Shown piece by piece: positions 3,733 to 47,797 of a stretch of DNA of 64,000 nucleotides. Numbering within the stretch: the first letter of the stretch is position 1; each line of letters starts with the position of its first letter. The position numbers and the translations under genes were made by a program. Origin of the DNA: Candidatus Rokuibacteriota bacterium (lineage in GTDB: Bacteria > Methylomirabilota > Methylomirabilia > Rokubacteriales > CSP1-6); assembly GCA_003220225.1 (NCBI GenBank), contig QHRU01000056.1, positions 1 to 64,000 of the forward strand, written 5' to 3'. Under the pieces are notes generated by a model, which worked only from the letters and a program-made list of their open reading frames with translations, searched no databases and was not told where the DNA came from.

Positions 3733-3883
3733 GCCTCGCTCTGGACGTCGGCCGGCGAGAGGCGACCGACCCGTACGACGAAGGTCCCATCACATGCGCC
3801 CGATTGTCCGATGGCCACGGCGCCGGCAGGCTCCTACGATACCCGCTGCAGGCCACGTCGCGGCCATGGCGGAGGACACGAGC

Positions 3884-4340
3884 ATGAAGATCCCCGCTCA
3901 ACGTTCGCCCTCGCAGGTCTGACCCTTCTTGCCGCAGCGTGCGCCACGGCCAAGGGCGCCGACGTGAAAGCGCCAACGTCGAGCTTTCTCGGGCCGGACG
4001 CGCGCCTGCTGACGCCGGGCGACGTCTCCAAGGGCCAGGCGGGTCTGCGCTACTTCAACCCGGCCGCGCAGTGGCAGCAGTACAAAAGCGTCCTCATCGA
4101 GCCCGTGACGTTCTGGGGAGACGAGACCAGCAAGGTGGCGCCCTCCGACCAACAGGCGCTGGCGACCTATTTCAAGGGCGCCCTCGACAAGGAGTTCGGA
4201 GAAAAGTTCCAGGTCGTGTCCGAGCCCGGACCCGGCGTCGTCAGGGTTCAATTCGCGATCACGGATGCCGAAGCCGCCACGCCCGGCCTGCGCACGGTCG
4301 CGCTGGTCGTGCCGCAGCTGCGCACGGTCAACGCCGTTCA
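3884..4340 (+). pseudogene. Truncated, frameshifted DUF3313-like lipoprotein
   Basis: This is the first of three window copies of a lipoprotein family marked by LTPGDVSKGQAGLRY, NPAAQWQQYKSVLIEPVTFWGDE and ATPGLRTVALVVPQ. ATG 3884 starts a signal peptide, but a one-base shift within it puts the hydrophobic core and lipobox (LLAAACA) in a different frame. The 3' end stops matching the intact copies (27789-28478 and 51039-51743) after RTVNAV, losing about 90 residues including the GGGSxxxAAQWxWGDAENA block. DNA of other origin follows directly: a heme-motif fragment and IS481. The gene is non-functional. Confidence 0.7.
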
Positions 4341-4387
4341 TGCTGGAATTCCTCGGCGTGGCACTGCGCGCAGATCTGGGCTCCCAC
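4331..4387 (-). pseudogene. Scrap of a c-type cytochrome heme-binding segment
   Basis: Minus-strand reading VGAQICAQCHAEEFQ carries a CxxCH heme-attachment motif in the context typical of multiheme cytochrome N-termini (xVGxxxCxxCHxxxF). Only about 19 codons remain, squeezed between the IS481 fragment and the truncated DUF3313 gene. Confidence 0.4.
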
Positions 4388-4601
4388 ATGACTCGGCGCC
4401 GGCTCCCGTGAGGGCCCCGCGAGCGAGGCCGGGCCGGACTGCCACCACCACTCGGCCGCCCTGACCGTCTTCTCGCACACGCGGGCGGTTCGGCTCACGC
4501 GCCGAGCCGACGCGCCGAGCCGAGCGGCCCAGCCCCACCACCTCGCGGACAACTTCTGCTCGACCATGAGGCGTCAACCGGGCATTCTTGTGGATGTTCA
4601 T
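4388..4601 (-). mobile_element. 5' fragment of an IS481-family transposase
   Basis: The minus strand starts at ATG 4601 with NIHKNARLTPHGRAEVVREV, the characteristic N-terminus of IS481 transposases. After a frameshift it continues as ARVCEKTVRAAEWWWQSGPASL, the helix-turn-helix region (family pattern VCxKTVRKWxxRFxxxGxxGL). The DDE catalytic domain is absent. The element apparently truncated the gene now seen as a fragment at 4621-4908. Confidence 0.65.
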
Positions 4602-5389: not shown

Positions 5390-6421
5390 TCACTGCGGCG
5401 CCTGTCGAAAGGCCCGCGGCGATAGACCATGCCACGCCCGGAACGCGCGCTGGAAGGCGCTCGGATCGCGGTAGCCGAGCAGGAACGCCACTTCGGACAC
5501 CGCGAGACGGCCGTCGCGCAGCAGCGGCCGCGCCATCTCTTGCCGGAGCGCCGTCAGCACGGCGGCGAACGTCGTGCCCTCGGCGCGTAATTGACGCTGG
5601 AGTGTCCGCGCACTGACTCCCAGCGCGCGCGACACTTTGCCGAGCCCGGGGACGCCTTCGCTGAGTTCCGCCCAGAGGAGCCGCCGCACGCGATGCGCCG
5701 TCGACCGGTCGTCGCCGAGGCGCGCCAGCGTGTCGTCGGCGAGATGTTCCAGGTAGCCGGTCACCGTCGGATCGGACAGGACGACTGGCCGCTGCAGATC
5801 CGTGTTGTCGAGCAGCAGCGCCGTGGCGAGGGTGCCGAATTCCAGCGGTGCCCGAAAAAATCGCTCGTAGGGCGTGACGCCGTCCGGCCGCCGATACGGA
5901 AATTGCACGACAAGTGGCGCCAGCGGCGCCGCGGCGATCTCACGCAGGGTGGCGAGGAGGGCGGCGAGCCGGCTGTCGACCGCCGGGCGCAATGAGCGTA
6001 GCGCCGGCTGCGAGTCCACCCGCACCCACGTCGCCTCGGCGTCGCGGGCGAGGCTCACCACCAACGCGTCGGAGACGATCCGTCCGTAGCGGGCGAGACG
6101 CTCGAGCGCCGTCGAGACGGTCGTGCTGTACGCCATGACGCATCCGACGAGACCAAGGTCGCGCACGCGACAGTCGGCGCCGAGGCGCAGCCCTATCGTC
6201 GGCTCCGTCGCCTGCACCGTGATCGCTTTCCACAGGCGCGCCACTGCGGCCAACGGAATTCTCGCGTCCGGATTTCGTAATTGGCGCTCGTCGAGACCGG
6301 CCGCGCGCATGAGCTGCGCGTACGGTATCCCGAGCGCGCTCATGCGCGTGAGCGGCAGGAGCGCGAGCCGGGCGAGGCCCGACGGCTCGCTCACAGGATG
6401 GCCGGCATCAATCTTCGGCAC
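5390..6421 (-). CDS. AraC-family transcriptional regulator (arabinose-binding-like N-terminus)
   Basis: A 343-residue regulator. Residues about 25-210 match the Arabinose_bd/OruR type effector domain ([40 protein letters not shown]). Residues about 245-340 form the double helix-turn-helix ([20 protein letters not shown], then [20 protein letters not shown] with the typical FQRAFRxWHGxSPxxFR ending). Relatives such as OruR and ArgR-like AraC proteins control catabolic or fatty-acid genes. A perfect copy of the 18-bp palindrome lies 35 bp upstream (6456-6473), so the gene itself may be a regulon member. The target is unknown. Confidence 0.85.
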
Positions 6422-6455: not shown

Positions 6456-6473
6456 ATCGGACCAAGGTCCGAT
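6456..6473. promoter_or_regulatory. Palindromic operator, perfect copy
   Basis: ATCGGACCAAGGTCCGAT: two exact 8-bp inverted half-sites around AA. It lies 35 bp upstream of the araC-like gene (minus) and directly abuts the GH63 fragment (plus). Confidence 0.85.
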
Positions 6474-6689: not shown

Positions 6690-6724
6690 GGTCAAACGAC
6701 GGGCAGCAGTCCATTGTGTTGACG

Positions 6725-7090
6725 ATGCCCTCGTTGATCTGCGTGATCGACGACGATCGGTCGGTGCTGCGCGCGCTGCGACGGCTCCTCTGGGCCGAGG
6801 CGTTCGCCGTCGAGGCCTTCGGCTCGGCCGAGGAGTTCCTCGCCTCCGAGCACCGGGCCAACGCCAGGTGCCTTGTGCTGGACGTCAACCTGACCGGCCG
6901 GAGCGGATTGGAGCTGCAGGAGCAGCTGCTTCTGACCGGAGCCGCGCCGCCGATCGTCTTCATCACGGCCTACGACGACCGGGTCGCCCGCGAGCGCGCA
7001 TGTCGAGCCGGCGCCGTCGACTATCTACGGAAGCCATTCGACGACACGGCCCTTCTAGACGCAATCAATCGGGCCATCAGGGGTTCCTGA
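6725..7090 (+). CDS. FixJ-type stand-alone receiver
   Basis: A 121-residue receiver with all key residues: CVIDDD acidic pocket, phospho-acceptor Asp in LVLDVNL, Thr in FITAYDD and Lys in LRKPFDD. The alpha4-beta5-alpha5 face ([12 protein letters not shown]) is FixJ/TodT-like. No output domain follows. Start ATG 6725 was chosen because everything upstream in frame is GH63 scrap or operator. It lies just before the MASE1 kinase operon on the same strand and could be a third phosphorylation partner for that kinase. The ribosome site is weak. Confidence 0.85.
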
Positions 7091-7142: not shown

Positions 7143-7160
7143 ATACGACCAAGGTCTTAT
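7143..7160. promoter_or_regulatory. Palindromic operator, MASE1 kinase operon
   Basis: ATACGACCAAGGTCTTAT: good match to the palindrome, 42 bp upstream of the kinase start at 7202. Confidence 0.7.
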
Positions 7161-7201: not shown

Positions 7202-9757
7202 ATGATGGCAGAAACTGGGAACAATAGGGTCCAGGGCTGGAGGCCGGCAGCGACGCTTCTGGCCGTGGCCGTCGCCTACTACGTGGGCGCCCAGTTGGGC
7301 TTCATCCTGAGATTCCCGCCGACGACGCCCTCCGTTCTCTGGCCACCCAACTCGATCCTGACCGCGACGCTTCTCCTCACACCGGTACGGCGGTGGTGGC
7401 TCTACCTGCTGGCGGCGCTTCCAGCGCATCTCGCCGCCGAGCTGCCTGTGTTGCCCCCGCTCCTCGTGTTCGGCCTCTTTGCGACGAACTGCGCCGAGGC
7501 GCTCGTCGCCGCCGCGGGGCTCCGATGGTTGAGCGACGCGCCGACGCGCTTCGACACGCTCCCTCGCATGGCGGTTTTCGTGCTCGTCGGAGCTCTCGCC
7601 GCGCCTTTCGTCTCATCGTTTCCGGACGCGGCCCTCGTCACCGCCATACAGGGGGAATCCTACTCATTCGTCTGGCGCACCCGCTTCTTCTCCAACGTCC
7701 TCGCGTCGCTCACGATCGTGCCGGCAGTCGTCATGGCCGTACGCAACGGGCTGCCGAATCTCCGCGCAGCGGCTCCGCACCGCCATCTCGAGGCGGGCCT
7801 GCTCGCCAGCGGGCTCTTCCTGGCGAGTATGGGTCAGTTCGGGAATCCGTCGGAGTTCGGGCTGGGGCTGCCGGCGGAGCTGTCCGCGCCGGTCGCGGTC
7901 CTGTTGCCGTTCCTCCTCTGGTCGGCGGTCCGCTTCGGGCCGGGCGGACTCAGCGTCTGCCTCGTCGCGACGGCGCTGCTGGCGGTCGTCGCCGGCACGG
8001 GCGAGAGCGGGATCTTCGTGACGCAGCGGGCCGCGGAGGCCGTACTCTCGCTTCAGATCCTTCTCAGCACTATGGCGATCCCGCTGATGTGCCTGGCGGC
8101 TGTGATCGAGGAGCGCCGGCAGGCCAGCGAGGCCCTTGCCACACGGCTCCGGCTGGAGGAAATGCTCTCCCGCCTGTCGGCGGCCTTCGTCCATCTGCCG
8201 AGCACCGAGATGCATCGGGCGCTCGACGAATGGCTGGGACGTCTCGGCGAGCACATGGGTCTCGATTGCGTCGTGATCGCGGAGTACTCCAGGACCGCGG
8301 CCGATGAGCTGGTCGTCCGCGCGTGGGCCCCATCGGAACCGGTGAAGCCCCAGACCGTCGCCTGCCGCGAGGTGCGGTGGGCCGACGACCAGCTTCGCCA
8401 GAGGCAGACGATCGCGGTCCGTGACGTGGGCGATCTTCCGCCCCACGCCCACGCTGAGCGGCTCATGTTTCGCCTGTACGGGATCAGGTCGTGCATCGTG
8501 GTGCCGTTGGAGGCTGGTGAGCGGGTCCTTGGTGGCCTGGCGGTCGCAACGACCAGCGCGGATCGGGCGTTGCGCGAGCCGTTTTCGGGATGGCTTCGTC
8601 TGGTGGCGGAGGTCTTCGCCAGTGCGCTCGAGCGGACAGCGATGGAGGACGCGCTGCGGGCCAGCGAGGGGATGAAGTCGGCCATCCTGTCCTCGCTGAG
8701 CAACGGCGTGGCCGTGCTGGACTCGGACGGCACGATCGTCGCAGTCAGTCAGAGCTGGACGATCGAAGGCGCGACCGTCGGCAGCAATTACGTGACCGCC
8801 TGGCGGGAGACGGCGCGCGCGGGTGCTTCACACGGCTCGGACGCGGCTGCTGGTATCGCCGCCGTCCTCGCTCGTGAGCGCGACTCCTTCGCGTTCGAGT
8901 ACACGGCGCGCGACCCGACGGCGGAGCGCTGGTACTCGATGGTCGTCGTGCCCCTGAACCAGCCCGACGGCGGCGCGGTCATCTCGCACACGGATGTCAC
9001 CGAGCGGAAGCGGGCGGAGGTGAACGCCCAGCGTAGCCGCCAGGAGCTCGCGCATTTCACCCGCGTCTCGACGATGGGCGCGCTGGCCGCGTCGCTGGCT
9101 CACGAGCTGAACCAGCCCCTGGCCGCCATCCTGAGCAATGCCCAGGCCGCGCGCCGCTTCCTGGACGCGGCGCGGCCCGACTTGGGCGAAATCCGTAGCA
9201 TCCTGAGCGACATCGTCGAAGACGACAAGCGCGCGGGCAAGGTAATCGAGGGCCTGCGCGAGCTGCTCCGCAAGGGTGAGACTGAAGTCGAGCTTCTTGA
9301 CCTCAACGCCCTGATCCGGGACGTGGTCAAGCTCCTCGGCAGTGATGCGCTCATCCGGCGGGTCAGAATGCACCTCGACGTCGCCGCCGAGCCTCTCATC
9401 GTGGCTGGAGACCGCATCCAGCTGCAGCAGGTCGTCTTGAACCTTCTGGTCAACGCCATGGACGCTATGGCCGACTGCCCCACGGAGGAACGTGTCGTCT
9501 CCGTGCAAACCGAGCTGTGCGATGGCCAGACGGCGCGCGTGTCCGTCCAGGACGCCGGGCCGGGGATCCTCACCGGCCAGCACGATCTGCTCTTCGAGCC
9601 CTTCTACACGACCAAGCCCACAGGCATGGGCATGGGCCTGTCGATTTCGCGCTCGATCATGGAGGCGCACGGCGGCCTCATCTGGGCGACGAACAACCCG
9701 GCCCGCGGAGCGACCTTCAGCTTCGCCATGCCGATCCGCAACGGCACGGCGACGTGA
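7202..9757 (+). CDS. MASE1-GAF-PAS sensor histidine kinase
   Basis: An 851-residue membrane kinase. Residues about 15-305 form a MASE1 domain of roughly eight helices (signature GFILRFPPTTPSVLWPPN). A GAF domain follows at about 325-490, then PAS at about 495-615, HisKA at about 622-690 with the phospho-His in SLAHELNQPLAAILSN, and HATPase at about 735-848 with N-box NLLVNAMDAM and G-box GMGMGLSISRSI. The transmitter resembles FixL/TodS enzymes, which usually phosphorylate FixJ-type regulators. Its stop overlaps the start of the next receiver gene (GTGA), and a LuxR-type regulator follows, so this looks like a phosphorelay. The ligand is unknown. A shorter paralogue lies at 51780-53834. Confidence 0.9.
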   Translation: MMAETGNNRVQGWRPAATLLAVAVAYYVGAQLGFILRFPPTTPSVLWPPNSILTATLLLTPVRRWWLYLLAALPAHLAAELPVLPPLLVFGLFATNCAEALVAAAGLRWLSDAPTRFDTLPRMAVFVLVGALAAPFVSSFPDAALVTAIQGESYSFVWRTRFFSNVLASLTIVPAVVMAVRNGLPNLRAAAPHRHLEAGLLASGLFLASMGQFGNPSEFGLGLPAELSAPVAVLLPFLLWSAVRFGPGGLSVCLVATALLAVVAGTGESGIFVTQRAAEAVLSLQILLSTMAIPLMCLAAVIEERRQASEALATRLRLEEMLSRLSAAFVHLPSTEMHRALDEWLGRLGEHMGLDCVVIAEYSRTAADELVVRAWAPSEPVKPQTVACREVRWADDQLRQRQTIAVRDVGDLPPHAHAERLMFRLYGIRSCIVVPLEAGERVLGGLAVATTSADRALREPFSGWLRLVAEVFASALERTAMEDALRASEGMKSAILSSLSNGVAVLDSDGTIVAVSQSWTIEGATVGSNYVTAWRETARAGASHGSDAAAGIAAVLARERDSFAFEYTARDPTAERWYSMVVVPLNQPDGGAVISHTDVTERKRAEVNAQRSRQELAHFTRVSTMGALAASLAHELNQPLAAILSNAQAARRFLDAARPDLGEIRSILSDIVEDDKRAGKVIEGLRELLRKGETEVELLDLNALIRDVVKLLGSDALIRRVRMHLDVAAEPLIVAGDRIQLQQVVLNLLVNAMDAMADCPTEERVVSVQTELCDGQTARVSVQDAGPGILTGQHDLLFEPFYTTKPTGMGMGLSISRSIMEAHGGLIWATNNPARGATFSFAMPIRNGTAT

Positions 9758-10170
9758 GCCGGAACGGCGCCCGGATCATCGTGGTCGACGACGACATCTC
9801 GGTGCGCCGTGCGCTGTCCCGGCTCTTGATCTCCGCCGGCTACCAGGCCCAGACTTTCGAATCCGTGCGCGACTTGCTCATGAACGGCGAGCTCGGTCGC
9901 ACGGCTTGTGTGATCGTCGACGTCCGCATGCCAGGGCCGGGGGGACTTGAGCTTCAAGAGATCCTGTCGCAAGTCCCGGTGCCGATCCCGATCATCTTCA
10001 TCACGGGCAATCCCGACGTCCCGACGGCGGTGAAGGCGATGAAGGCCGGCGCCGTGGACTTCCTCTCGAAGCCGTTCAGCGAGGAGGAGCTCTTCGGCGC
10101 CGTCGAGCGGGCCCTCGCACTACGCTCGGCTTCAACGGACCAACGTCGTATGGCGCACCGCCGTCGATGA
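9754..10170 (+). CDS. Receiver-only response regulator coupled to the MASE1 kinase
   Basis: A 138-residue receiver with IVVDDDISVRRAL, the phospho-acceptor Asp in VIVDVRMPG, Thr in FITGNPD and Lys in FLSKPFSEEEL. The GTG start (9754-9756) overlaps the kinase TGA by four bases, which indicates translational coupling and therefore a direct partner. There is no DNA-binding domain; it may relay phosphate or compete with the LuxR-type regulator that follows. Its own stop overlaps the next ATG (ATGA). An operator copy lies within its last codons. Confidence 0.9.
   Translation: MSRNGARIIVVDDDISVRRALSRLLISAGYQAQTFESVRDLLMNGELGRTACVIVDVRMPGPGGLELQEILSQVPVPIPIIFITGNPDVPTAVKAMKAGAVDFLSKPFSEEELFGAVERALALRSASTDQRRMAHRRR
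10134..10151. promoter_or_regulatory. Palindromic operator before the LuxR-type regulator
   Basis: AACGGACCAACGTCGTAT, inside the end of the preceding receiver gene and only 15 bp upstream of the ATG at 10167. The position suggests autoregulation of the LuxR-type response regulator. Confidence 0.6.
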
Positions 10171-10871
10171 TTCACTATCTGCGGGCGGACCGGACGAGCG
10201 CGGTACCCAAGAACGCTGCGGTCCAGGGAGGACCGGCGGTGGCGACGGGTCCCGACTCTGTGGTGTACGTCGTGGACGACGACGAAAGCATCCGTCGCTC
10301 GCTCGCCCGCAACATGCGTGCGGCCGGCCTGACCGTGGAAACGTTCTCATCCGCGCAGGCCTTCCTCGCCCACGACCTGCCCGATCGAGTGGCGTGCCTC
10401 GTGCTCGATGTTCGCCTGCCCGGCGCCAGCGGTCTCGACCTTCAGACCGCGCTCCTCGAGGCCAACCGCGCCATGCCCACCATCTTCATCACTGGATTCG
10501 GCAACGTGCCGATGAGCGTGCAGGCCATGAAGGGCGGCGCCATCGATTTTCTCCAGAAGCCGTTCGACGAGAACGAGCTGTTGAGCGCCGTCGAACGCGC
10601 GCTGGCGCGCGGACGCCAGGCCCGCGCGGAGCGCGCCGAACGGCTCATCATCCAGCGCCGCTTCGATATGCTGACGCGCCGCGAGCGGGAGGTGCTCGAA
10701 CTGGTTGTGGCCGGCCTGCTGAACAAGCAAATCGCCTTCAACCTCGGGGCCGCGGAGAAGACCGTCAAGATTCACCGTGGCCGGGTCATGCACAAGATGC
10801 AGGTCGAGTCGGTGGCGGACCTGGTGCGCATGACCCAGCGGATCGGTATCGAGCCCTCCAAGACGTCCTAG
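10167..10871 (+). CDS. FixJ/TodT-type response regulator with LuxR-family HTH
   Basis: A 234-residue regulator. The receiver is at about 30-150 (VVYVVDDDESIRRSL, Asp in LVLDVRLPG, Thr in FITGFGN, Lys in FLQKPFDENEL). A LuxR/NarL helix-turn-helix lies at about 168-228 (LTRREREVLELVVAGLLNKQ, EKTVKIHRGRVMHKM). It is the only response regulator in the window with a DNA-binding domain. ATG 10167 overlaps the previous stop; a later GTG would also preserve the domains. The TAG stop (10869-10871) is the junction with the IS1380 element, whose target duplication includes it, so the coding sequence is intact. It is the best local candidate to bind the repeated 18-bp palindrome, including the copy just upstream of itself. 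Confidence 0.92.
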   Translation: MIHYLRADRTSAVPKNAAVQGGPAVATGPDSVVYVVDDDESIRRSLARNMRAAGLTVETFSSAQAFLAHDLPDRVACLVLDVRLPGASGLDLQTALLEANRAMPTIFITGFGNVPMSVQAMKGGAIDFLQKPFDENELLSAVERALARGRQARAERAERLIIQRRFDMLTRREREVLELVVAGLLNKQIAFNLGAAEKTVKIHRGRVMHKMQVESVADLVRMTQRIGIEPSKTS

Positions 10872-12672: not shown

Positions 12673-12690
12673 CTACGACCAAAGTCCGAT
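12673..12690. promoter_or_regulatory. Palindromic operator, DUF4136 gene
   Basis: CTACGACCAAAGTCCGAT, 50 bp upstream of the lipoprotein start at 12741. Confidence 0.7.
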
Positions 12691-12740: not shown

Positions 12741-13292
12741 ATGGCGAAGATCACGGTATGCCTCGCGGCGGCCGTCACGCTGGTGGCATGCAGCACGCTC
12801 CCGGCCATGAAGGTCGAGACCGACCACGACCCGGCAACGGCGACTCAGCTGCGCAGCTACCGGACATACCGTGTCCTGCCGGCGTCTAGTTACGGGTCGG
12901 TGGATGACGCGGCAATGGGTAGCGCGATCGTGCGCTCGGTGGACGAGACGCTTGATGGCAAGGGCTACCGGCAGGAGGCGAGCCGCCCGGACTTCCTCGT
13001 CAAGTGGCACGTGAGCGTCGAGAGCAGGCCGCAGTCGACGCCCATGGCAACTCCGACCTTTCGAGATGTCGGGCCGATGCCCTCGGCGGGGAGCACGAGC
13101 GTGCCGGTGATGGTGACCCGCCAGTACAGGGAAGGGACGCTGATCCTCGACATCGTGGATCCCGGCTCGGACACCGTCGTCTGGCGGGGCTCGGCCCAGG
13201 CCCAGCTCGCCGGATCCGGCGAACCCCAGACCCGGCAAGCGCGCATCCAGACAGCCGTGCGCCGGATCCTCGAGCGATTCCCGCCGCAATAG
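12741..13292 (+). CDS. DUF4136-type lipoprotein
   Basis: A 183-residue lipoprotein with signal peptide and lipobox TLVACS. It has the DUF4136 pattern: an early ETDHDPATATQLRSYRTYRV strand, the PDFLVKWHVSVESR centre, EGTLILDIVDPGSDTVVWRG, and an IQTAVRRILERFPP ending. DUF4136 proteins sit in the periplasm or at the outer membrane; their role is undefined. The start ATG 12741 has GGAGG upstream and the operator lies 50 bp before it. The stop lies one base from the convergent stop of atpC, leaving no room for a separate terminator. Confidence 0.85.
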   Translation: MAKITVCLAAAVTLVACSTLPAMKVETDHDPATATQLRSYRTYRVLPASSYGSVDDAAMGSAIVRSVDETLDGKGYRQEASRPDFLVKWHVSVESRPQSTPMATPTFRDVGPMPSAGSTSVPVMVTRQYREGTLILDIVDPGSDTVVWRGSAQAQLAGSGEPQTRQARIQTAVRRILERFPPQ

Positions 13293-13293
13293 A

Positions 13294-13704
13294 TCAGACC
13301 CGGCGGCGTCGCTTGACGCGCAATTGGGCCAGCGAGCGAGCGAGCGAGCCATTGACGGAGGCAATTTCTTCGTCCGAGAGCTTTTCCCGCAGACGCGCTT
13401 CGGCGCGTTGCCGCGCTTCCTCGGCTTTCGCTTCATCGATGCGATCAGCCGGAATGGCGAGGTCCGTCAGGATGGCCACGCGGCGGGCGGTGACCTCGAT
13501 GAGTCCCTCGCCCGTCGCGATGAACAGATCACGGCCCTCCTTGTGCGCGATCATTTCGCCCGGCACCAGTTGCGTCATCAGCGGCACGTGTCGTGGATAG
13601 ATCCCCATCTGGCCCGCCACGCCCGGCAGGGTGACCATCTCCACGTCCTCGGCGTAGACCGTGCCAGCCGGCGTGACGATCTCCAGCTTCAGCGTGGCGG
13701 CCAT
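13294..13704 (-). CDS. atpC: F1 ATP synthase epsilon subunit
   Basis: A 136-residue epsilon subunit: an N-terminal beta-sandwich (LKLEIVTPAGTVYAEDVEMV, LPGVAGQMGIYPRHVPLMT, IATGEGLIEV) and a C-terminal helical hairpin (AEEARQRAEARLREKLSDEE). It sits on the gamma stalk and acts as a brake on ATP hydrolysis. It is the last gene of the atpBEFHAGDC operon, 15 bp after atpD. Confidence 0.95.
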   Translation of the reverse strand: MAATLKLEIVTPAGTVYAEDVEMVTLPGVAGQMGIYPRHVPLMTQLVPGEMIAHKEGRDLFIATGEGLIEVTARRVAILTDLAIPADRIDEAKAEEARQRAEARLREKLSDEEIASVNGSLARSLAQLRVKRRRRV

Positions 13705-13719
13705 GTCGCGCCCGACCTC

Positions 13720-16022
<2,303 letters not shown>

Positions 16023-16037
16023 GCACCGCGCCGGTGT

Positions 16038-17570
<1,533 letters not shown>

Positions 17571-17582
17571 GCATCCCTCGCT

Positions 17583-17975
17583 TTAGAAGTGTTTCGCCAG
17601 CGCCGTCAGCCCGGCCCGCACGCTGCCGTCATACACGTCGCTGCCCACCTGAATGCGCATCCCACCGATCAACGCCGGGCGGTAGGCGAAGGTCGTGGTG
17701 ACGCCCGGTCCGTACCGGCGCATCAGAGCCGCCTCGATGGCAGCCTGCACATCTGCCGGCATGACCGTGACGCTCTCGATCGTGGCCGTATGCCGGGCGA
17801 GCTCGAGTCTCATCAGCCGACGAACGTGTGAAAGGATGGCCGGGCAATCACGGCGACCGGCGGCGACAACGCGTTGCACCACGTGTCGGACACGGTCCTC
17901 GTCGAGCACGCGGTTCACCAGACACAGGCGGAACAGTTGCCTGGCTTCGCGTTTCGCCCGTTTGCTGATCTTCAT
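17583..17975 (-). CDS. atpH: F1Fo ATP synthase delta subunit (short form)
   Basis: A 130-residue delta/OSCP subunit, shorter than the usual 170-180. The C-terminal signature is clear (ALIGGMRIQVGSDVYDGSVRAGLTALAKH). The N-terminal helical domain is abbreviated (KISKRAKREARQLFRLC). It joins the top of the alpha3beta3 ring to the peripheral b stalk. Position between atpF and atpA is standard, with 3 bp from atpF. The reduced N-terminus may alter the contact with the alpha N-termini; no frameshift is visible. Confidence 0.88.
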   Translation of the reverse strand: MKISKRAKREARQLFRLCLVNRVLDEDRVRHVVQRVVAAGRRDCPAILSHVRRLMRLELARHTATIESVTVMPADVQAAIEAALMRRYGPGVTTTFAYRPALIGGMRIQVGSDVYDGSVRAGLTALAKHF

Positions 17976-17978
17976 GGG

Positions 17979-18536
17979 CTAGGCCGCAATCTGCCTCGCC
18001 GTCTCCTCGACGAGCCTGCGCTGATCTTCCGAGGTCAGAATCTTGCCGGTGACCGCGGTGGTCGCCAGCACCACCAACCGGCCGACCTCGCGTTTGAGTT
18101 CGGCGAGCATGCGATCATGCTCTCGGTCGGCGGCTTCGCGTGCCTTGATCGTGATCTGTTCCGCGGCCGCGATGGCCTTCCGGGTTTGCTGCTCGCGCAC
18201 CCGGGCGGCCGCGACCCGGGCCTGCTCGATCAACGCGTTCGCCTGTGTATTCGCCTGCATCATGACTTCCTGCCGCTGCGCCTCGGTGCGCGCCAGCTCG
18301 GCCTTGATGTGCTCGGCATTGGCCAGGCCCAGAGCGATTTGTTGACGCCGCACTTCCAGCATCGTGAGGACAGGTCGATAGGCGAACCGGTAGAGGACAA
18401 CGCAGACGATGCAAAAGCTGGCGACCTGCGCGAGCAGATGAGGCCAGTCCACGCCGAAGGTCGTGACAATCCGTTCGGGGCGTCCGCTGTCCACGATTTG
18501 TGCTTGCGCCACCGAGAGAAGAGCATTCATCGTCAT
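17979..18536 (-). CDS. atpF: Fo ATP synthase b subunit
   Basis: A 185-residue subunit with one transmembrane helix (LLAQVASFCIVCVVLYRFAY) followed by the long amphipathic coiled coil typical of b (LARTEAQRQEVMMQANTQAN; IAAAEQITIKAREAADREHD). It dimerises as the peripheral stalk linking the a subunit to delta. The N-terminus includes a longer periplasmic-side lead (about 30 residues) than E. coli b. Only one b gene is present, so a homodimer is expected. Met3 is a possible alternative start. Confidence 0.93.
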   Translation of the reverse strand: MTMNALLSVAQAQIVDSGRPERIVTTFGVDWPHLLAQVASFCIVCVVLYRFAYRPVLTMLEVRRQQIALGLANAEHIKAELARTEAQRQEVMMQANTQANALIEQARVAAARVREQQTRKAIAAAEQITIKAREAADREHDRMLAELKREVGRLVVLATTAVTGKILTSEDQRRLVEETARQIAA

Positions 18537-18553
18537 ATGCGTGCCATTGCGGC

Positions 18554-18742
18554 CTATCTCACCAGGAACAGGGCGTAGAAGACGATCGCTTCGGCGAAGG
18601 CGATGGACAGAATCGACTGGACCAGAATCTGCGTCGCCGCGCCTGGATTACGTCCCACTGCGTCCGACGCTTTCATCCCGATCAAACCAACCCCAAGGGC
18701 CGCGCCGAGCGCCGCCAGACCAACGTGCAGGCTCCCCGTCAT
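18554..18742 (-). CDS. atpE: Fo ATP synthase c subunit (short, proton type)
   Basis: A 62-residue two-helix proteolipid, about 15 residues shorter than most because the N-terminal lead before helix 1 is trimmed. Helix 1 contains LAALGAALGVGLIGMKASDA, the loop is RNP, and helix 2 carries the ion-binding Glu51 in SIAFAEAIVFYALF. The residue after Glu is Ala, not Ser/Thr, and helix 1 lacks the Gln ligand, so this should be a proton rather than sodium ring. Its ATG overlaps the atpB stop (ATGA). Confidence 0.93.
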   Translation of the reverse strand: MTGSLHVGLAALGAALGVGLIGMKASDAVGRNPGAATQILVQSILSIAFAEAIVFYALFLVR

Positions 18743-19713
18743 GTAACCCCCTCTTTCCCGTTTCCCTCATGCCGACAAACCAGGAGAGTGAAGACTGCGC
18801 ACAACAGCATGAACACCAGCGCCTGGACCAAGCCCACCAGCAGTTCCATGAAATAAAACGGAATCGGCAGCAGCCACCCGAGGACGGGGCCCATCCGGGA
18901 CATGGTCTCCAGCATGTTTTCTCCGGCAAAGGTGTTGCCGTAGAGACGAAAGCTCAGTGATACCGGCCGGAAAAGGATGGAGACGATCTCCAAACAGCCG
19001 GCGGCGAAGAACACGACGATCATCAACACCTTCAAGAAGCCGGTGCTCTCGCCCTTGGGGGCAAATAACTCTTTCAGGAACCCGCCCGGACCCACTTCTC
19101 GGAGCGCCCAGATGATCCAGCAGGCGAAGAACACGAGAGCCATGGCGAGCGTCAGGTTGAGATCGGCATTCGCCCCGCGGAAGAGCGGTTGATCGACCAC
19201 GAAACCATCGGCGGTCTGCTGTCCCCAGCCAATCGTGCCGACCCCCGGAATGAGGCCCACCCAGTTGGCGGCAAGGATGAAAATGAACACCGTGGCGAAA
19301 AACCAGAACGTCCGCTTGACCAGATGCGGGCCGATGATGTTTTCCAGAAAGCCGTACAGGCCCTCGACGAGCCATTCCAGGAGATTCTGCGCTCCGCCGG
19401 GAACACGTTTCATGTCCCGTGTTGCGACCCGGGCAAAGATGATCAAGCCGACTGCCACGATCCAGCTCACGACCATCGAATTGCTGATGGGGAAGCCGAA
19501 GGGACGGGCGATCTCGACCGCCTTTTGAGGCAGCCCGTGTTCCTCGGGTTCAGCGCCCCCCGAAGGCACACGGCCGGCCGCCTCGTGTGTCGACCTCGCG
19601 GATCCCGCCGGTGGGGCTTCGTTCCACGCAACCGCTATACTGCCGCCTTGGCTCATGAACGGGGCGGCAAGCAGCAAGACACACAGAACATTCAACGTGA
19701 ACCGGATCTTGAT
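18739..19713 (-). CDS. atpB: Fo ATP synthase a subunit, probable AUC start
   Basis: About 324 residues. The C-terminal half has five to six membrane helices, including the essential Arg in SLSFRLYGNTFAGEN and the closing YFMELLVGLVQALVF. The N-terminus has a signal-like segment and a Pro/Gly/Glu-rich periplasmic extension. No ATG or GTG fits: the open frame to 19812 would translate the operator. An ATC codon (19713-19711) lies 7 nt after AGGAG and begins a clean signal sequence (IKIRFTLNVLCVLLLAAPF); TTG a few codons later is too far from the ribosome site. It is the first gene of atpBEFHAGDC; no atpI/atpZ precedes it. Confidence 0.88.
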   Translation of the reverse strand: MKIRFTLNVLCVLLLAAPFMSQGGSIAVAWNEAPPAGSARSTHEAAGRVPSGGAEPEEHGLPQKAVEIARPFGFPISNSMVVSWIVAVGLIIFARVATRDMKRVPGGAQNLLEWLVEGLYGFLENIIGPHLVKRTFWFFATVFIFILAANWVGLIPGVGTIGWGQQTADGFVVDQPLFRGANADLNLTLAMALVFFACWIIWALREVGPGGFLKELFAPKGESTGFLKVLMIVVFFAAGCLEIVSILFRPVSLSFRLYGNTFAGENMLETMSRMGPVLGWLLPIPFYFMELLVGLVQALVFMLLCAVFTLLVCRHEGNGKEGVT

Positions 19714-19772: not shown

Positions 19773-19790
19773 ATCGGACTTTGGTCCGAC
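19773..19790. promoter_or_regulatory. Palindromic operator, ATP synthase operon
   Basis: ATCGGACTTTGGTCCGAC: near-perfect palindrome 60 bp upstream of atpB. It implies that all eight ATP synthase genes belong to the regulon. Confidence 0.8.
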
Positions 19791-20201: not shown

Positions 20202-20600
20202 TCACTTCGGGCGGCACGGGTACTCGGTGATGAAGAATCGCCCCAGCACCTCCACCGCGGGCTCCGTCAAGCGCTCCGGGCTCCGTTTGGCCCATTCGAG
20301 AAACCGCCCGACGACCTCGTTGCGCGACGGGGGCGGCTCCGGCGGGCAGATGAGCGGCGTGAGTTTTTCGTGCCTGGTGAGCGCCATGATGGTCTGGTAG
20401 GTGCCGGCGCCGAATCCGTGACACATGTGGACCGCCGCTGTGTACAACGGGTCGGTGGCGGCCGTCGCGCAAAGCGCGACGACGTCGGCGCCCGATCGCA
20501 AGCGAAACTCCTCGGCCGTGATCGCCGGCGCCGGCGCGGCGTATCCGAGAATCATGATCGCGATCAGCAGCCGCCGAGCGGACGTCGCGTACCCTCTCAT
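20202..20600 (-). CDS. Rap1a/Tai-like secreted protein
   Basis: A 132-residue exported protein. The signal peptide ends in APAPA. Cys residues are spaced as in Rap1a/Tai domains: LCATAATD near the start, VHMCHGFGAGTYQ in the middle, LICPPEPPPSRNEVV, and a final FFITEYPCRP. The founding Rap1a proteins are periplasmic immunity proteins against type VI peptidoglycan amidases, but the domain is widespread without type VI systems, and none is seen here. The start ATG (20600) overlaps the MscS stop (ATGA), so the two are coupled. Its role with the channel is unknown. Confidence 0.7.
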   Translation of the reverse strand: MRGYATSARRLLIAIMILGYAAPAPAITAEEFRLRSGADVVALCATAATDPLYTAAVHMCHGFGAGTYQTIMALTRHEKLTPLICPPEPPPSRNEVVGRFLEWAKRSPERLTEPAVEVLGRFFITEYPCRPK

Positions 20601-23089
20601 CGATGGCCTCCGTCTGTTCGAAGTCGCACCTCGCGCTGCGGGACGGGGATCTCCATTCCCGCGTCCTGCAGCGCCGCGTACACGGCGATGTTCAGGTCGC
20701 TCTTGATCGTGAGCCACCGATCGAAGTGATCCGTCCACGCCCGGAGTTCGAACTTCAGCGCGCCGTCAGCGAATTCTAGGAAGAGCGCCTCGGGCGCCGG
20801 CCTGGCCGCCACGTGTGGGTGTGCCGCCGCCACGCCGCGCAGCAGCTCCAGCACCTTTTCGGGCGGGGTGCCATAGGCCACGCCGACCGGCACGTCCACA
20901 CGTCGCACGTGGCGCGAGAGCGTCCAGTTGGTCACTTTCTCGGCCACGAGGCTGGCATTGGGGACGATGACGTCGGCACCCTCCGCTGTCTGGACCGTGG
21001 TCGAGCGGATGCCGATCCGACGCACTTCGCCCGCCACGTCGCCCATCTGGATCGCGTCGCCCACGTGCATCGGCCGCTCGAGGAGCACGATCAGTCCCGA
21101 GACGAAGTTGTTCACCATGCCCTGCAGTCCGAAGCCGAGACCCACTCCGAAGGCCCCCGCGAGGATCGTCACCTTGTTGAGATCGATCCCGAGCGCCGCG
21201 ATCGCCAGCAGGAAGCCGAGAAGGAGGACCCCGTAGTGCAGCAGGCTCGAGATCGTGTACGACAGGCCGCGCCCGAGCCTGAGGCGAGGGAACACGTCCT
21301 CCTCGAGCAGGAATCGGACGAACGCGGAGACCATGAACGCCAGCCACACGGTGAGGAAGAAGGCCAGGACGTCGCCCACCGAGATGCTCATGCCACCCCG
21401 TCGTACCTCGGTGGCCAAGGCCGCTCGTCCAAGCGCAGCCGCAGCATCCAGGAGACCGCGGTGGCTCAACATGGCGAACGCCCACGTGCCGGCCATGATC
21501 GCGCAGAGCGCGCGGTGGGCACGCCGCTCCAGGAGATCGCGATGTCGCGCGACCATCCCGAGCCGGTCCAACGGCGACACCCGGAGGGCAAAGGCGAGCA
21601 GACCGCCCGACACCTTGACCGCGGCATAGGCCGTAATCGCCACGAACACGTCGATGAGCAAGCCTGACCCGAGCATTCGCGCCAGGCGCACGCTGCCGTA
21701 GGCGGCCGCTCCGAACGATGTGACGCAGACGAGGAGACAGAAGCCGGCGACGGTGTCCTGGGCGTGCACCCGTTGGAGCGTCATGCCGTCCGCGGGGAGG
21801 GCACGATGGAGCTGCCGGGAGCCGAAGAGCCATGCCAGGAGGACGATGGCAGGCAGCATCTCCACCAGCAGGATGACCTGATCGCCCAGGGGAGTGACGA
21901 CCACCTGGGCTCGGACGCGATCCACGAGGATCAGCCCGGCGAACGCGTAGAGCGCGGGAGCCATCGCACGGGCGATCAGCGGTCGCACGATGCGCAGCAG
22001 CGGCAGGAGCAACAGGATCCCCGAGACGTCGCCGACCGTGCGAGGCCGGACCGGATAGATCCAGAAGACGGACACGAGGGCGCCCACCGCGGCCGCGGAA
22101 TACGGGCGATCGAACACGGCGGCTGCCGGCGGCACTCCCTCGCGTGCCGCGGCGGGGCCGTGGGCCCACGATCGGGCGGCACGAGTGAGGAAAACCAGAG
22201 CGATGAAGAGCAGACCGTGCAGGAGGAGGCGGACCGTGTGGTCGCCGGCGAATTGTCTCAGCAGCATGGCGCTGGCGCCGAGCTGGTCCCTGATATGCGC
22301 AGGCAGCACCTCGAAGTCCGCTCTGCGCAGCTCGCCACTCCAGATCGGCGGCGAGCTGCGAGCGAACGTCAGCGCAAGGGATCCCCGCCGGATTCGGGTG
22401 ATCTGCGCCAAGGCCCGCTCGCAGCGCTTGGCCTCCTCGGCCACCTGGTCCTGCAAGACGAGCGTGACGGCGCGCTGCGCCTGCAGTCGCACGTGTGCCG
22501 CGTCGATGTCGGCGAGGACGGTTTCCACGTTCTGCAGGACAGGGGTGGGGGCACGCGAGGCCTGCGCGGCCGTGCGCGTTTGCGCCCACGTGGCGCGCAG
22601 GCCCGCCAGGCGGTTCAGCTCGCGCTCGAGCTGGGTCGCGTGCTTCGTGATGATCTCCAGCCACCCGGCCAGCTCCGAGCTGCTCGCTTGCCAGGACTGC
22701 GTCAAGCGTTCCTGGATGCCGATCGGCGGCCCTTGCTCCAGGACGTCGATCGTGGATTTGAATTCGGGGCCGAGCTTCGTGCGGACGTCGGGCAGCCGAG
22801 TCTGGATCGCCACGATCGCGGGCACCGGCGCCGCCAGCGCGTCGAGCTCGCGCAGGAGCTTCGTCACCTCTTCGGCCTGCACGACGATCTGTGGCACGGG
22901 AATCGACACGGGCGCCTGCGGCGCCGCAGCCTTGGGCGGCGCTCCCGGCGCCGGCGGGGCCTTCTGCGGAGCCTCCGCCGGCGGGACGGTGCCTGCGGCC
23001 GGCGAGGCCGGCGCGCCGAAGGCGGCCGGCGCGATCGCCAGCACGCCCAGCAGCGCGCACACCACGACGATGTCGTGCAACCGTCTCAT
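20597..23089 (-). CDS. Large MscS-family mechanosensitive channel (MscK/MscM-like)
   Basis: An 830-residue channel. It has a cleavable signal peptide and a Pro/Ala linker. A long periplasmic coiled region follows (about 60-265, VVQAEEVTKLLRELDAL), then roughly ten membrane helices and the C-terminal MscS core: GIDLNKVTILAGAFGVGLGF, GMVNNFVSGLIVLLERPMHV, GDAIQMGDVAGEVRRIGIRS and IVPNASLVAEKVTNWT. The size and periplasmic domain resemble MscK/MscM, which release solutes on hypo-osmotic shock. It leads an operon with a Rap1a-like protein and a glycine-zipper lipoprotein. Two tandem operators lie 35-75 bp upstream. Confidence 0.92.
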   Translation of the reverse strand: MRRLHDIVVVCALLGVLAIAPAAFGAPASPAAGTVPPAEAPQKAPPAPGAPPKAAAPQAPVSIPVPQIVVQAEEVTKLLRELDALAAPVPAIVAIQTRLPDVRTKLGPEFKSTIDVLEQGPPIGIQERLTQSWQASSSELAGWLEIITKHATQLERELNRLAGLRATWAQTRTAAQASRAPTPVLQNVETVLADIDAAHVRLQAQRAVTLVLQDQVAEEAKRCERALAQITRIRRGSLALTFARSSPPIWSGELRRADFEVLPAHIRDQLGASAMLLRQFAGDHTVRLLLHGLLFIALVFLTRAARSWAHGPAAAREGVPPAAAVFDRPYSAAAVGALVSVFWIYPVRPRTVGDVSGILLLLPLLRIVRPLIARAMAPALYAFAGLILVDRVRAQVVVTPLGDQVILLVEMLPAIVLLAWLFGSRQLHRALPADGMTLQRVHAQDTVAGFCLLVCVTSFGAAAYGSVRLARMLGSGLLIDVFVAITAYAAVKVSGGLLAFALRVSPLDRLGMVARHRDLLERRAHRALCAIMAGTWAFAMLSHRGLLDAAAALGRAALATEVRRGGMSISVGDVLAFFLTVWLAFMVSAFVRFLLEEDVFPRLRLGRGLSYTISSLLHYGVLLLGFLLAIAALGIDLNKVTILAGAFGVGLGFGLQGMVNNFVSGLIVLLERPMHVGDAIQMGDVAGEVRRIGIRSTTVQTAEGADVIVPNASLVAEKVTNWTLSRHVRRVDVPVGVAYGTPPEKVLELLRGVAAAHPHVAARPAPEALFLEFADGALKFELRAWTDHFDRWLTIKSDLNIAVYAALQDAGMEIPVPQREVRLRTDGGHR

Positions 23090-23124: not shown

Positions 23125-23142
23125 ACCGGACCTAGGTCTCAT
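23125..23142. promoter_or_regulatory. Palindromic operator, tandem copy 1
   Basis: ACCGGACCTAGGTCTCAT in the divergent promoter between the MscS operon (minus) and the lipoprotein gene at 23236 (plus); its centre is 24 bp from that of the next copy. Confidence 0.7.
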
Positions 23143-23148: not shown

Positions 23149-23166
23149 ATGGGACCTTGGTCGTGT
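23149..23166. promoter_or_regulatory. Palindromic operator, tandem copy 2
   Basis: ATGGGACCTTGGTCGTGT, second copy in the same divergent region, 69 bp upstream of the lipoprotein start at 23236. Confidence 0.7.
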
Positions 23167-23235: not shown

Positions 23236-24324
23236 ATGAGGCTACACTCCGTGCTCCTCATCCTGACCCTGGGGGGCCTGACGGCCGGGTGCGTCCTCGG
23301 GCCGGGCACCGTGATCCGCGACCGTTTCGACTACAGCGCCGCGGTCGCCGACTCGTGGAAGAGCCAGATGCTGCTGCACCTCGTCCGCACCCGCTACGGT
23401 GACACCGGGGTGTTCCTGGACGTGGGGCAGATCGTCGCCGGCTACACGGTCGAGACCACGGTGTCGGCCGCCGCGGCCTGGAACCTCTTCGGCTTTTCGA
23501 TCCCGCACCCGAACGTTCCCAACAACAGCGTCAGCGCGGGCGTCGCCGGTCGATTCACCGACCGGCCGACCATCACCTACACCCCGCTCGTGGGTGAGCG
23601 CTTCTCCCGCTCGATGCTCACCCCGGTCCCGCCCGCGGCGGTGCTGAGCCTCATTCAGGCCGGCAACCCCGTCGACGTGGTGCTGCGGCTCATGGTGAGC
23701 GTGGTGAACGGTATCGACAACCGCTACGGCGGCGACCTGCGAGCGCACCCGGCGGACGCGGAGTTCTACGCGCTCCTCGAGCGGATGCGCCGGGTCCAGC
23801 TCTCCGGCGGTATCGGGATGCGCGTCCGCCGGCTCGAGCGCGACGAAGCCGTCCTCATGACGTTCCGCCAGAAGGTGGACCCCGCCGTCGAGCCCGACAT
23901 CCGCGAGATCCGGCAGCTCCTCGGCCTCGACCCGGGCGCGCGGGAGTTCCGGGTCGTGTATGGGTCGGTGGCCTCGAGCGACAAGGAGATCGCGATCCTG
24001 ACGCGGTCGGCGCTGGAGATCCTGGTCGACCTGTCGTCGTTCATTGCGGTGCCGGAGGAGCACGTCGCGGAGCGGCGCGTGAGTCCGACGGCTGCCGCCG
24101 AGGAAGGCCCGGCCGGGCCCATCAGGCCGTTGATCCAGATCAAGAGTTCCAGGGACCGGCCGGCCGACGCGTTCGTGGCGGTGCCCTATCGCGACTACTG
24201 GTTCTGGATCGACGACCGCGACGTCCCGTCCAAGCGGATGTTCAGCTTCATCATGTTCGTCTTCGCGCTCGTCGAGCCGGCCAGCAAGGACGCCCCGCCG
24301 GTGCTCACGATCCCCGCCGGCTGA
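23236..24324 (+). CDS. Hypothetical outer-envelope lipoprotein
   Basis: A 362-residue lipoprotein with signal peptide and lipobox LTAGCV (Cys19). Recognisable stretches are DRFDYSAAVADSWKSQMLLH and LVRTRYGDTGVFLDVGQIVA, followed by a Thr/Ala-rich region, TITYTPLVGERFSRSMLTPV, and a C-terminal FWIDDRDVPSKRMFSFIMFV. I do not recognise a named domain. The DSWKxQMLLNLVKLRY-like start recurs in uncharacterised lipoproteins of several proteobacteria. It is transcribed divergently from the MscS operon across the tandem operators and followed 33 bp later by a small membrane protein. Confidence 0.75.
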   Translation: MRLHSVLLILTLGGLTAGCVLGPGTVIRDRFDYSAAVADSWKSQMLLHLVRTRYGDTGVFLDVGQIVAGYTVETTVSAAAAWNLFGFSIPHPNVPNNSVSAGVAGRFTDRPTITYTPLVGERFSRSMLTPVPPAAVLSLIQAGNPVDVVLRLMVSVVNGIDNRYGGDLRAHPADAEFYALLERMRRVQLSGGIGMRVRRLERDEAVLMTFRQKVDPAVEPDIREIRQLLGLDPGAREFRVVYGSVASSDKEIAILTRSALEILVDLSSFIAVPEEHVAERRVSPTAAAEEGPAGPIRPLIQIKSSRDRPADAFVAVPYRDYWFWIDDRDVPSKRMFSFIMFVFALVEPASKDAPPVLTIPAG

Positions 24325-24679: not shown

Positions 24680-25642
24680 CTATTCCTGGCAGAAGCGTTC
24701 GCGGCGCTGCAAGTAGGCGTGACGGACGGCGCTGTACATGTCGACCGTGCTCTCTTCGAAGCCCTGGAACAGGTCCAGGTTGAGCGATCGCTCGTTGACG
24801 ATGTCGCCCACCTTCATACCCACGCGGTCCCAGACGAGCGGCAGGAAATAGGAGAGCGGTTCCATCAAACTGTCGACCGCCTTGCCGATCCCCTCACGGA
24901 TCGTCAGCGGCTCCAGGAACGGCACGATGACGTACCGACCGGGCCGCACGCCGTAGACACACAACGTCTGTCCGAAGTCTTTGCGGCTCTTGAGAATGCC
25001 GAAGACGTCCTTGGCCGGATCGAACAAGCCACCCACGCCCGCCGTGCTGTTGATGAGGAAGCGTCCGATCTCGCGGCCGGCGCCCTTGACGTTGCCCTGG
25101 AGCAGGTTGTTGATGAACCGTGGCACGAACGAGATGTTGCCGAAGCCGTTCGCAATCATGATCTGGATCTCATCGGGGACGACGAAGTTGTAGCCCTTCG
25201 CGAACGGCTTGAGGACGTACTTGTCCAGCCGCCGGTTGAAGTCGAACGCCTTCGTGTTCCAGCCCTCCCACGGATCGTACGCTTCGAGCTCCACATCCGT
25301 GGTCGTCTCGCGCGCCTGGGCCATGCCTTCCTCGGGCGCCAGGGGGTCGGCGACGGCGTCCGCGCTCTGCGGTGCGGCGTCGGTGGCCGGGTCGGCCGCG
25401 GTGGCGACCAGCGTCGCCTCGCGCTCGGGAGCGGCGGACGGCGCCGATGCCGGGTCGGCGTCACCCACGACTGCGGCTTCGATGGTGCGCGGCGGGCCGA
25501 CGTTGAGGGCGGAGTCGACACGGGCTGCGCGGGACAACGTGCCGCATGCCGTCAGCCCGAGTGCGAGCGCACCGAAGCAGACGACGGTGGCGAGGCGAGG
25601 GAGCCTGAGTCCATCGACACTCGTAGACGTTTGCGCTGTCAT
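24680..25642 (-). CDS. mlaA: MlaA/VacJ family outer-membrane lipoprotein
   Basis: A 320-residue lipoprotein. Lipobox GLTACG is followed by a long low-complexity Ala/Asp-rich linker (about 35-125) not found in E. coli MlaA. The MlaA domain then follows: DPWEGWNTKAFDFNRRLDKY, VPRFINNLLQGNVKGAGREI, FLINSTAGVGGLFDPA, SRKDFGQTLCVYGVRPGRYV and NERSLNLDLF. MlaA removes mislocalised phospholipids from the outer leaflet and passes them to MlaC and the MlaFED complex. Here it stands apart from the Mla operon at 46.6-50.6 kb, but both loci carry the same operator. Start ATG 25642 matches the signal peptide. Confidence 0.92.
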   Translation of the reverse strand: MTAQTSTSVDGLRLPRLATVVCFGALALGLTACGTLSRAARVDSALNVGPPRTIEAAVVGDADPASAPSAAPEREATLVATAADPATDAAPQSADAVADPLAPEEGMAQARETTTDVELEAYDPWEGWNTKAFDFNRRLDKYVLKPFAKGYNFVVPDEIQIMIANGFGNISFVPRFINNLLQGNVKGAGREIGRFLINSTAGVGGLFDPAKDVFGILKSRKDFGQTLCVYGVRPGRYVIVPFLEPLTIREGIGKAVDSLMEPLSYFLPLVWDRVGMKVGDIVNERSLNLDLFQGFEESTVDMYSAVRHAYLQRRERFCQE

Positions 25643-25729: not shown

Positions 25730-25747
25730 ATCGGACCCTGGTCCCAT
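25730..25747. promoter_or_regulatory. Palindromic operator, mlaA
   Basis: ATCGGACCCTGGTCCCAT, 88 bp upstream of the minus-strand mlaA start. Confidence 0.75.
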
Positions 25748-25850: not shown

Positions 25851-25868
25851 CTAGGACGAACGTCCGAT
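25851..25868. promoter_or_regulatory. Palindromic operator, gene at 25936
   Basis: CTAGGACGAACGTCCGAT, 67 bp upstream of the plus-strand exported-protein gene; 103 bp from the mlaA copy in the same divergent region. Confidence 0.75.
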
Positions 25869-26531: not shown

Positions 26532-26549
26532 ATCGGACTTTCGTCCGAT
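26532..26549. promoter_or_regulatory. Palindromic operator, HtrA-like gene
   Basis: ATCGGACTTTCGTCCGAT: full palindrome with a TT centre, 54 bp upstream of the protease start. Confidence 0.85.
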
Positions 26550-27642: not shown

Positions 27643-27750
27643 ATGAGGCACGGGGTCTGCCACACCCTGACCATCGACGCGCCGAAGCTGACGCCGGAAG
27701 ACAAGCAGAAGCTCACGGAAGCGCAGCACAACAACCGGGCGAGCGAGTGA
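27643..27750 (+). CDS. Possible 35-codon ORF or gene-end remnant
   Basis: A short reading frame, ATG 27643 to TGA 27750, four bases after the protease stop. It contains TIDAPKLTPEDKQKLTEAQ, a charged helical segment that looks like real protein, possibly the C-terminal scrap of a larger lost gene. It ends 38 bp before the DUF3313 lipoprotein. No ribosome site of note, no family. Confidence 0.25.
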   Translation: MRHGVCHTLTIDAPKLTPEDKQKLTEAQHNNRASE

Positions 27751-47796: not shown

Positions 47797-47797
47797 G

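Follow-up and report, generated by a model that had tools for sequence, protein, structure and literature searches.

Our analysis of a 64,000-nt stretch of a Candidatus Rokuibacteriota genome, hereafter the window, indicates that a subfamily of FixJ/StyR-type response regulators, including the protein encoded at 10239–10871, very probably reads an inverted repeat that recurs in the window, with binding predicted from sequence. This conclusion follows from the co-occurrence of regulator and operator across genomes, from a sister clade (C) with both a changed recognition helix and a changed palindrome, and from a half-site difference between clades A and B. That the window protein alone is the master of the operator is clearly less probable. 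With this assignment an orphan repeat would become a regulon with a named candidate reader.

The regulator gene (+ strand) was detected as ORF 10167–10871, and a Pfam scan of its product revealed a receiver domain (PF00072, E = 1.8e-23) followed by a GerE/LuxR helix-turn-helix (PF00196, 5.9e-20). Together with the phospho-acceptor Asp in CLVLDVRLPG (residue 81), this is the domain plan of NarL/FixJ (LuxR-type) response regulators, i.e., an N-terminal receiver and a C-terminal GerE domain, the recognition helix of which is EKTVKIHRG (E197–G205, numbering from ATG 10167). The best NCBIfam match is the FixJ model NF006900 (E = 9e-63), although the equivalog cut-off of this model is missed (211.5 vs 255 bits), and the nearest solved structure is StyR (1yio, E = 1.4e-55 over 194 residues), with FixJ next. 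Searching genome contigs with the window protein returned eight loci of at most 49% identity, none of them from the host lineage. The true start is probably GTG 10239 rather than ATG 10167, as assumed in a previous sequence-only reading of this DNA, since homologues mostly align only from about residue 25–31 of the ATG-initiated protein and the GTG is preceded by a ribosome site, GGGAGGA. A start at GTG 10239 would place the centre of the nearest operator 94 bp upstream. Among the scanned proteins, five carry receivers (4920, 6632, 9757, 10167, and 53834) and only this one has a DNA-binding domain, as that reading had stated. An AraC-type regulator without a receiver is encoded at 5390–6394.

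The operator pattern GACCAANGTCYNAT has 19 matches in the window at up to one mismatch, compared to a mean of 0.22 and a maximum of 3 in 100 shuffles, and the 17-mer CGGACCAAGGTCCGATA of the palindrome has 11 matches at up to three mismatches, compared to 0.21 expected. All but one of the 19 operators are intergenic (binomial p ∼4e-15, on a gene map that is 86.5% coding and comes from our own GC-frame script instead of a standard gene caller), and they are mostly found 42–130 bp ahead of a start. The sequence GACCWANGTCYNAT occurs 19 times in the 6.03-Mb genome and its reversed control not at all; ten of these occurrences lie on the 109-kb contig of the regulator, nine of them within the window. 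Comparison to the same-genus genome G002 covers 14 of the 19 sites. The copy at 10138 is one of the other five, as contig C205 of G002, with a length of 3763 bases, breaks off within the kinase gene. Two of the 14 lie in regions that are identical throughout; of the other 12, which have informative flanks, nine are better conserved than their flanks and three are not.

Several operators are associated with genes for signal transduction. A perfect pattern match, ATCGGACCAAGGTCCGAT (6456–6473, +), separates the AraC gene (−) from a gene for an orphan single-domain receiver (6716–7090, +; assigned by Pfam and the gene map). The copy at 7143–7160 (+), which is identical in contig C205 of G002 together with its flanks, precedes an operon for a MASE1-GAF-PAS-HisKA-HATPase sensor histidine kinase (7202–9757, +; Pfam), the likely cognate kinase, followed by a single-domain receiver (9754–10170, +; Pfam and gene map) and the regulator. 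A second MASE1 histidine kinase (PAS, HisKA, HATPase; 51780–53834, +; Pfam) is likewise followed by a single-domain receiver (53831–54253, +; Pfam and gene map). Upstream of this kinase and of a DUF3313 protein gene (50718–51743) lies an operator with one mismatch (50578–50595, +), which is kept in G002 in flanks that are 78% identical. Another operator (54250–54267, +), kept in G002 in flanks of 79% identity, precedes genes for a solute-binding protein (54308–55201) and RND efflux (55222–59770).

The remaining copies are distributed among genes with putative functions in the cell envelope and energy metabolism. They are located upstream of another DUF3313 protein gene (3773–3790, +, one mismatch; gene 3964–4464), before a DUF4136 lipoprotein gene (12673–12690, +; gene 12741–13292), and upstream of a second F-type ATP synthase operon (19773–19790, −; operon 13294–19569, −). 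Two sites, 23125–23142 (+, one mismatch) and 23149–23166 (−), fall into the divergent promoter region between an MscS-like gene (20597–23089, −) and 23251–24324 (+), and a further two, 29466–29483 (−, one mismatch) and 29482–29499 (+), between genes for an HATPase protein (28623–29429, −) and a PPDK-like protein (29534–32314, +). Copies with one mismatch precede mlaA (25730–25747, −; gene 24680–25642, −), the gene 25936–26454 (+) (25851–25868, +), a trypsin/PDZ protease gene (26532–26549, −; gene 26628–27638, +), MMPL/MlaC genes (37754–37771, +; genes 34399–37703, −), and the gene 37965–39209 (−) (39265–39282, −), and one more lies between 43308–44225 (−) and a PAS protein gene at 44456–45001 (+) (44347–44364, +). 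Finally, the operator at 45027–45044 (+) precedes genes for MlaE, an ABC ATPase, MlaD, and an auxiliary lipoprotein (45120–50559). Most promoters in this contiguous block of genes for the envelope, lipid transport, efflux, and a second ATP synthase carry a box, which would be an unusual arrangement for a regulon.

Some features of this region are worth recording in their own right. The a subunit of the genome's other ATP synthase is encoded on contig C113. The operator cluster also includes a DDE transposase gene (PF13701; 11081–12451, −), which immediately follows the regulator gene. DUF3313 proteins are represented by three paralogues (3964–4464, 27747–28478, and 50718–51743), two of which are directly behind operator copies.

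Co-occurrence of the regulator subfamily and the motif, which had been proposed as a check in the sequence-only reading, was analyzed in 99 genomes by counting exact motif copies and taking regulator homologues at E ≤ 1e-35. The regulator tree comprises 29 sequences, 28 of them near full length and that of G035 cut at its N-terminus, with four shorter matches excluded; its clades, named A (which holds the window protein), A′, B, and C, were defined after viewing the tree and have branch supports of 0.999 to 1.0 for A′, B, and C and low supports among the A lineages. The outcome of the check was positive: all 16 carriers of A, A′, or B regulators have at least two exact copies and 14 have at least three (141 in total, mean 8.8), counted with a pattern written from the window sites, which introduces some circularity. 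Among 41 non-carrier genomes of the same family, only one, G005, reaches three copies, compared to the 14 of 16 carriers (Fisher p = 2e-10), and each of the five genomes with clade C regulators only has either no or one A/B-type exact copy. Relatedness among genomes was handled solely through a within-genus contrast, in which the mean copy number of carriers exceeds that of non-carriers in six of six mixed genera (g4, g6, g9, g10, g11, and g19), narrowly in g4. Moreover, an operator with up to one mismatch is found within 10 kb of 20 of the 21 A/A′/B regulators vs none of the eight clade C regulators (p = 2e-6), in a scan that is shorter where contigs or extracted stretches end. At the clade B locus of G039, no operator was found within the 10.8 kb examined.

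Many motif copies without an orthologue of the regulator, an observation that the sequence-only reading had named as speaking against its proposal, were encountered once in the family. The genome of G005 (∼100% complete) contains five exact copies but lacks regulators of clades A, A′, B, and C, its best regulator-like matches having E = 2e-17; the other 40 of the 41 non-carriers have fewer than three copies. The G005 palindromes lie at C2:43903, C23:5450 and 5482, C59:11554, and C63:30045. Outside the family, four of 42 genomes have at least three copies, all of them from family f9 (G074, G075, G081, and G085, with 3 to 5 exact copies each and no regulator at E ≤ 1e-35). We set these aside as counterexamples because the matches in the four loci inspected (L155–L158, one per genome) coincide with or adjoin a tandem-like repeat of 7 bases (CCAATGACCAATGACC) instead of the palindrome; the repeat is plain in three of the four, and the copy in G075 shares its letters (GAATGACCAATGTCCAAT). 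By its resemblance to the motif, this repeat-like sequence based on CCAATGA raises the f9 counts. In G009, which has no A/B regulator, two tandem operators are located directly before an apparently frameshifted single-domain receiver gene (C16:8156–8467, L148).

When homologues of the window genes, receivers excluded, were inspected for an operator in the 300 bp upstream, one was present for 13 of 38 at A loci, 3 of 9 at A′ loci, 3 of 9 at B loci, and 0 of 16 at C loci; many of the homologues without an upstream operator probably sit inside operons.

The clades differ in both helix and palindrome. All 21 A/A′/B proteins carry the helix EKT[VI]K[IVFM]HR and all eight clade C proteins E[AVP]TVKEQRG. 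At clade C loci of G055, G056, G026, G018, G035, G001, and G028 (L062–L066, L069, L077, and L078), we found the palindrome ACCC-N-ACC-AA-GGT-N-GGGT, i.e., ACCC-N-ACCAANGT-N-GGGT, mostly followed by AGAC or AGAA. At up to one mismatch, this C box has 20 matches in 143 kb of C loci, compared to three in 340 kb of A/B loci, and none in the window; exact copies are present in six of seven clade C genomes vs two of the 92 others. These two are G002 (two copies) and G053 (one copy), and a pattern scan of the loci taken from them found no C regulator. Since boxes downstream of four C regulators (from G026, G035, and G056) were already known when the C pattern was written, the independent clade C genomes are G001, G018, G055, and G028; exact copies occur in the first three of these (3/3), and G028 has copies with one mismatch only.

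The operators of all clades have the core ACC-NN-GGT in common. With half-sites numbered from the centre outward, positions 5 to 8 read G, G, variable, and T in clade A, G, G, T, and T in clade B, and variable, C, C, and C in clade C; T occupies position 7 in 71 of 82 half-sites from clade B and 9 of 104 from clade A, and C occupies it in 50 of 50 from clade C. A box of the clade B type is ATTGGACCAAGGTCCAAT and one of the clade C type ACCCGACCAACGTAGGGT. Of the exact copies in B-only genomes, 37 of 42 end in -AAT, compared to 3 of 12 in A′-only genomes. The same ending is found in the regulator's own genome in none of the nine exact copies on its contig and in six of seven elsewhere.

With moderate confidence, we propose a scenario in which a FixJ-type regulator has diverged into sister clades that each use a separate palindrome on the shared core, and in which a few helix residues set the outer half-site. 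The pairing that this scenario would entail, and which shares its grading, is EKT[VI]K[IV]HRG with AT[ACG]GGACC, EKTVKVHRA with ATTGGACC, and E[AVP]TVKEQRG with ACCC-N-ACC. If true, this would be a readable specificity code by which paralogous kinase–regulator systems in the same cell could govern distinct regulons, each physically clustered. With its three operator dialects and three helix types, this one bacterial family also provides an evolutionary data set from which DNA-recognition rules of FixJ/NarL proteins could be derived.

The existence of paralogues bears on which member of the subfamily is in charge. A clade A paralogue outside the window (C91:97625–98230, 63% identical) could be the main reader, leaving the window protein as a secondary reader or modulator. 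It is encoded on the same contig, belongs to the same family and helix class (EKTIKIHRGR), and has an operator (101448–101461) ∼30 bp before its kinase ORF. Nevertheless, we consider this assignment unlikely, as the operators are densest around the window protein, with 19 copies at up to one mismatch in the first 64 kb of the contig vs seven in the remaining 45 kb, and as several other genomes have the same operators with a single clade A or A′ regulator, observations with which shared binding is compatible. The own genome also encodes a clade B paralogue on contig C142. The earlier description of the window protein as the simplest candidate master is supported at the level of the subfamily, where the co-occurrence and the helix and palindrome variants agree with it, but its single-master part is weakened by the two paralogues.

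Autoregulation had been proposed from operator copies before the regulator and before its kinase operon. Both copies are present: the first ends at 10151, exactly 15 bp before ATG 10167, and the second is a perfect match, ATACGACCAAGGTCTTAT (7143–7160), ahead of the kinase ORF. The palindrome before the regulator, ATCGGACC-AA-GGTCCGAT, has one pattern mismatch; AACGGACCAACGTCGTATGGCG at 10134–10155 fits GACCAANGTCYNAT with one mismatch at 10138–10151. This copy (AACGGACCAACGTCGTAT, 10134–10151, +) is the weakest of the 19 and the only one inside a gene, within the 3′ end of the receiver gene 9754–10170. An autoregulated two-component operon should carry an operator at its own promoter. For the predicted transcription units, this role would fall to 7143–7160 and, more weakly, to 10134–10151, and autoregulation would rest better on the kinase-operon copy. 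Upstream boxes also occur at other loci: besides the C91 paralogue, G028:C132 and G001:C12 have a box beyond a kinase homologue, ∼3.2 kb ahead of the regulator gene, and at G004:C45 a pair of boxes precedes the regulator by 437 and 472 bp. In clade B, a box frequently follows the stop codon of the regulator gene directly, ahead of the next gene.

It could be argued that the 10134–10151 copy is a chance near-match among otherwise real sites, given its position inside a gene, the mismatch that breaks its symmetry, and its lack of conservation before other clade A regulators, with no equivalent in front of the C91 paralogue or of the regulators of G028:C132 and G001:C12. We find this doubtful: only 0.22 such matches are expected by chance in the whole window, the copy stands at the usual 42–130 bp from the next likely start, and a weak box showing the same deviation (GTCG) precedes the clade A′ regulators of G053 and G030 by 126–127 bp. 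The clade A′ regulator of G041 has no upstream box as good as these.

A NarL-type (DosR-like) regulator represented by G000:C136:65487–66242 (L086:10487–11242; relatives L163–L169) is an improbable reader of the repeat, even though its genes are accompanied by boxes. In G000, G002, and G048, one box overlaps the start and others directly follow the stop; G005, G013, and G039 likewise have boxes behind the stop, so that such boxes occur even in genomes without A/B regulators. Such a reader would explain G005. The boxes after the stop are often tandem. However, neither G047 nor G048 has an exact copy anywhere, although both encode orthologues (65 and 84% identical, respectively), and seven genomes without a match to this family at E ≤ 1e-22 (G020, G028, G037, G041, G053, G030, and G011) still have 3 to 30 copies. 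Over the 99 genomes, this regulator is neither sufficient nor necessary and was rejected as the sole reader, but kept as a possible second one. It is highly improbable that yet another factor, e.g., the AraC-type protein 5390–6394, reads the repeat and that the LuxR regulator is only a target gene, since, despite the operator 6456–6473 adjoining the AraC gene and the copy borne by the regulator gene itself, this would leave the changed helix and palindrome of clade C and the clade A/B difference unexplained, and the palindromic AC-N4-GT geometry suits NarL/FixJ dimers.

With the FixJ/StyR-type subfamily as the reader, we propose that the LuxR helix-turn-helix of the 10239–10871 protein would bind AT-N-GGACC-AA-GGTCC-N-AT as a dimer, each half-site of this inverted repeat being read by one recognition helix. 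The MASE1-GAF-PAS kinase 7202–9757 would probably phosphorylate the regulator, and the single-domain receivers may serve as phosphate sinks or relays. Through ∼19 operators, the regulator could control a contiguous envelope/energy cluster comprising lipoproteins, Mla-type lipid transport, an MscS-like channel, RND efflux, and the second ATP synthase, and could feed back on its own kinase operon via 7143–7160 and more weakly on its own gene via 10134–10151. Activation as the sign of regulation is a guess by analogy with StyR and DosR.

In the one literature library that we searched, the spellings of the box retrieved only a DosR paper on a bacterial operator. Searches of the same library returned no publication on two-component regulons of Rokubacteria, nothing relevant on recognition-helix co-evolution, and nothing specific on MASE1 kinases with LuxR regulators.

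The closest characterized relatives are StyR, TodT, TutB, and TmoT, FixJ-type regulators of aromatic catabolism which have the same domain plan as the window regulator and share the AC-N4-GT core. In PMC5874301, the StyR/TodT palindrome is given as ATAAACN4GTTTAT, StyR is thought to use K175, V176, and H179 for recognition, and TdiR-like relatives with other residues are proposed to read GGTGTTCGCACC. The StyR/TodT operator is not matched by the window box, which has GGAC instead of AAAC in the outer half-site but agrees in the core, and of the three StyR residues K is kept, V is replaced by I, and H by G. In StyR numbering, counted from the alignment, the window regulator has K instead of V at position 172 and G instead of H at position 179. 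The system described here also differs in its MASE1-GAF-PAS kinase and its putative envelope/energy targets. Rhizobial FixJ belongs to the same family and is the best NCBIfam match, below the equivalog cut-off, but has the helix PRT[VI]EV, compared to EKTVKI in the window regulator.

For DosR/DevR of Mycobacterium tuberculosis, PMC5999986 gives the box TTGGGGACTAAAGTCCCTAA, contacted by K179, K182, and N183 within K-T-V-K-N. This box shares the GGAC-N4-GTCC spacing with the window box and differs in the outer bases; K179 and K182 are kept in the window regulator (K-T-V-K), and N183 is replaced by I, and by I, V, F, or M among A/A′/B regulators. The overall similarity to DosR is weak (helix-turn-helix E = 1.6e-5) and the putative targets differ. 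The AC-N4-GT geometry of the StyR/TodT and DosR boxes agrees with the earlier notion that known FixJ/NarL sites share the core geometry of the repeat. EL222 carries a nearly identical helix, SEKTVKMHRG, and, according to PMC10521638, binds boxes such as ACCTAGACCAAAGCAGGTAGT; this natural site and the window box have GACCAAAG in common. EL222 is a light-regulated one-component factor and no response regulator, and its sites are less symmetric. CrbR of the Pseudomonas acetate regulon is, according to PMC5715377, another LuxR-type regulator with an imperfect inverted repeat, the ACTU motif (e.g., TACGACTAAAGTCTAAA), but has an SLC5/STAC kinase and acs and actP as targets. By analogy, a regulator with an EKTVKIHRG helix that reads GGACC-AA-GGTCC is what these known relatives would predict.
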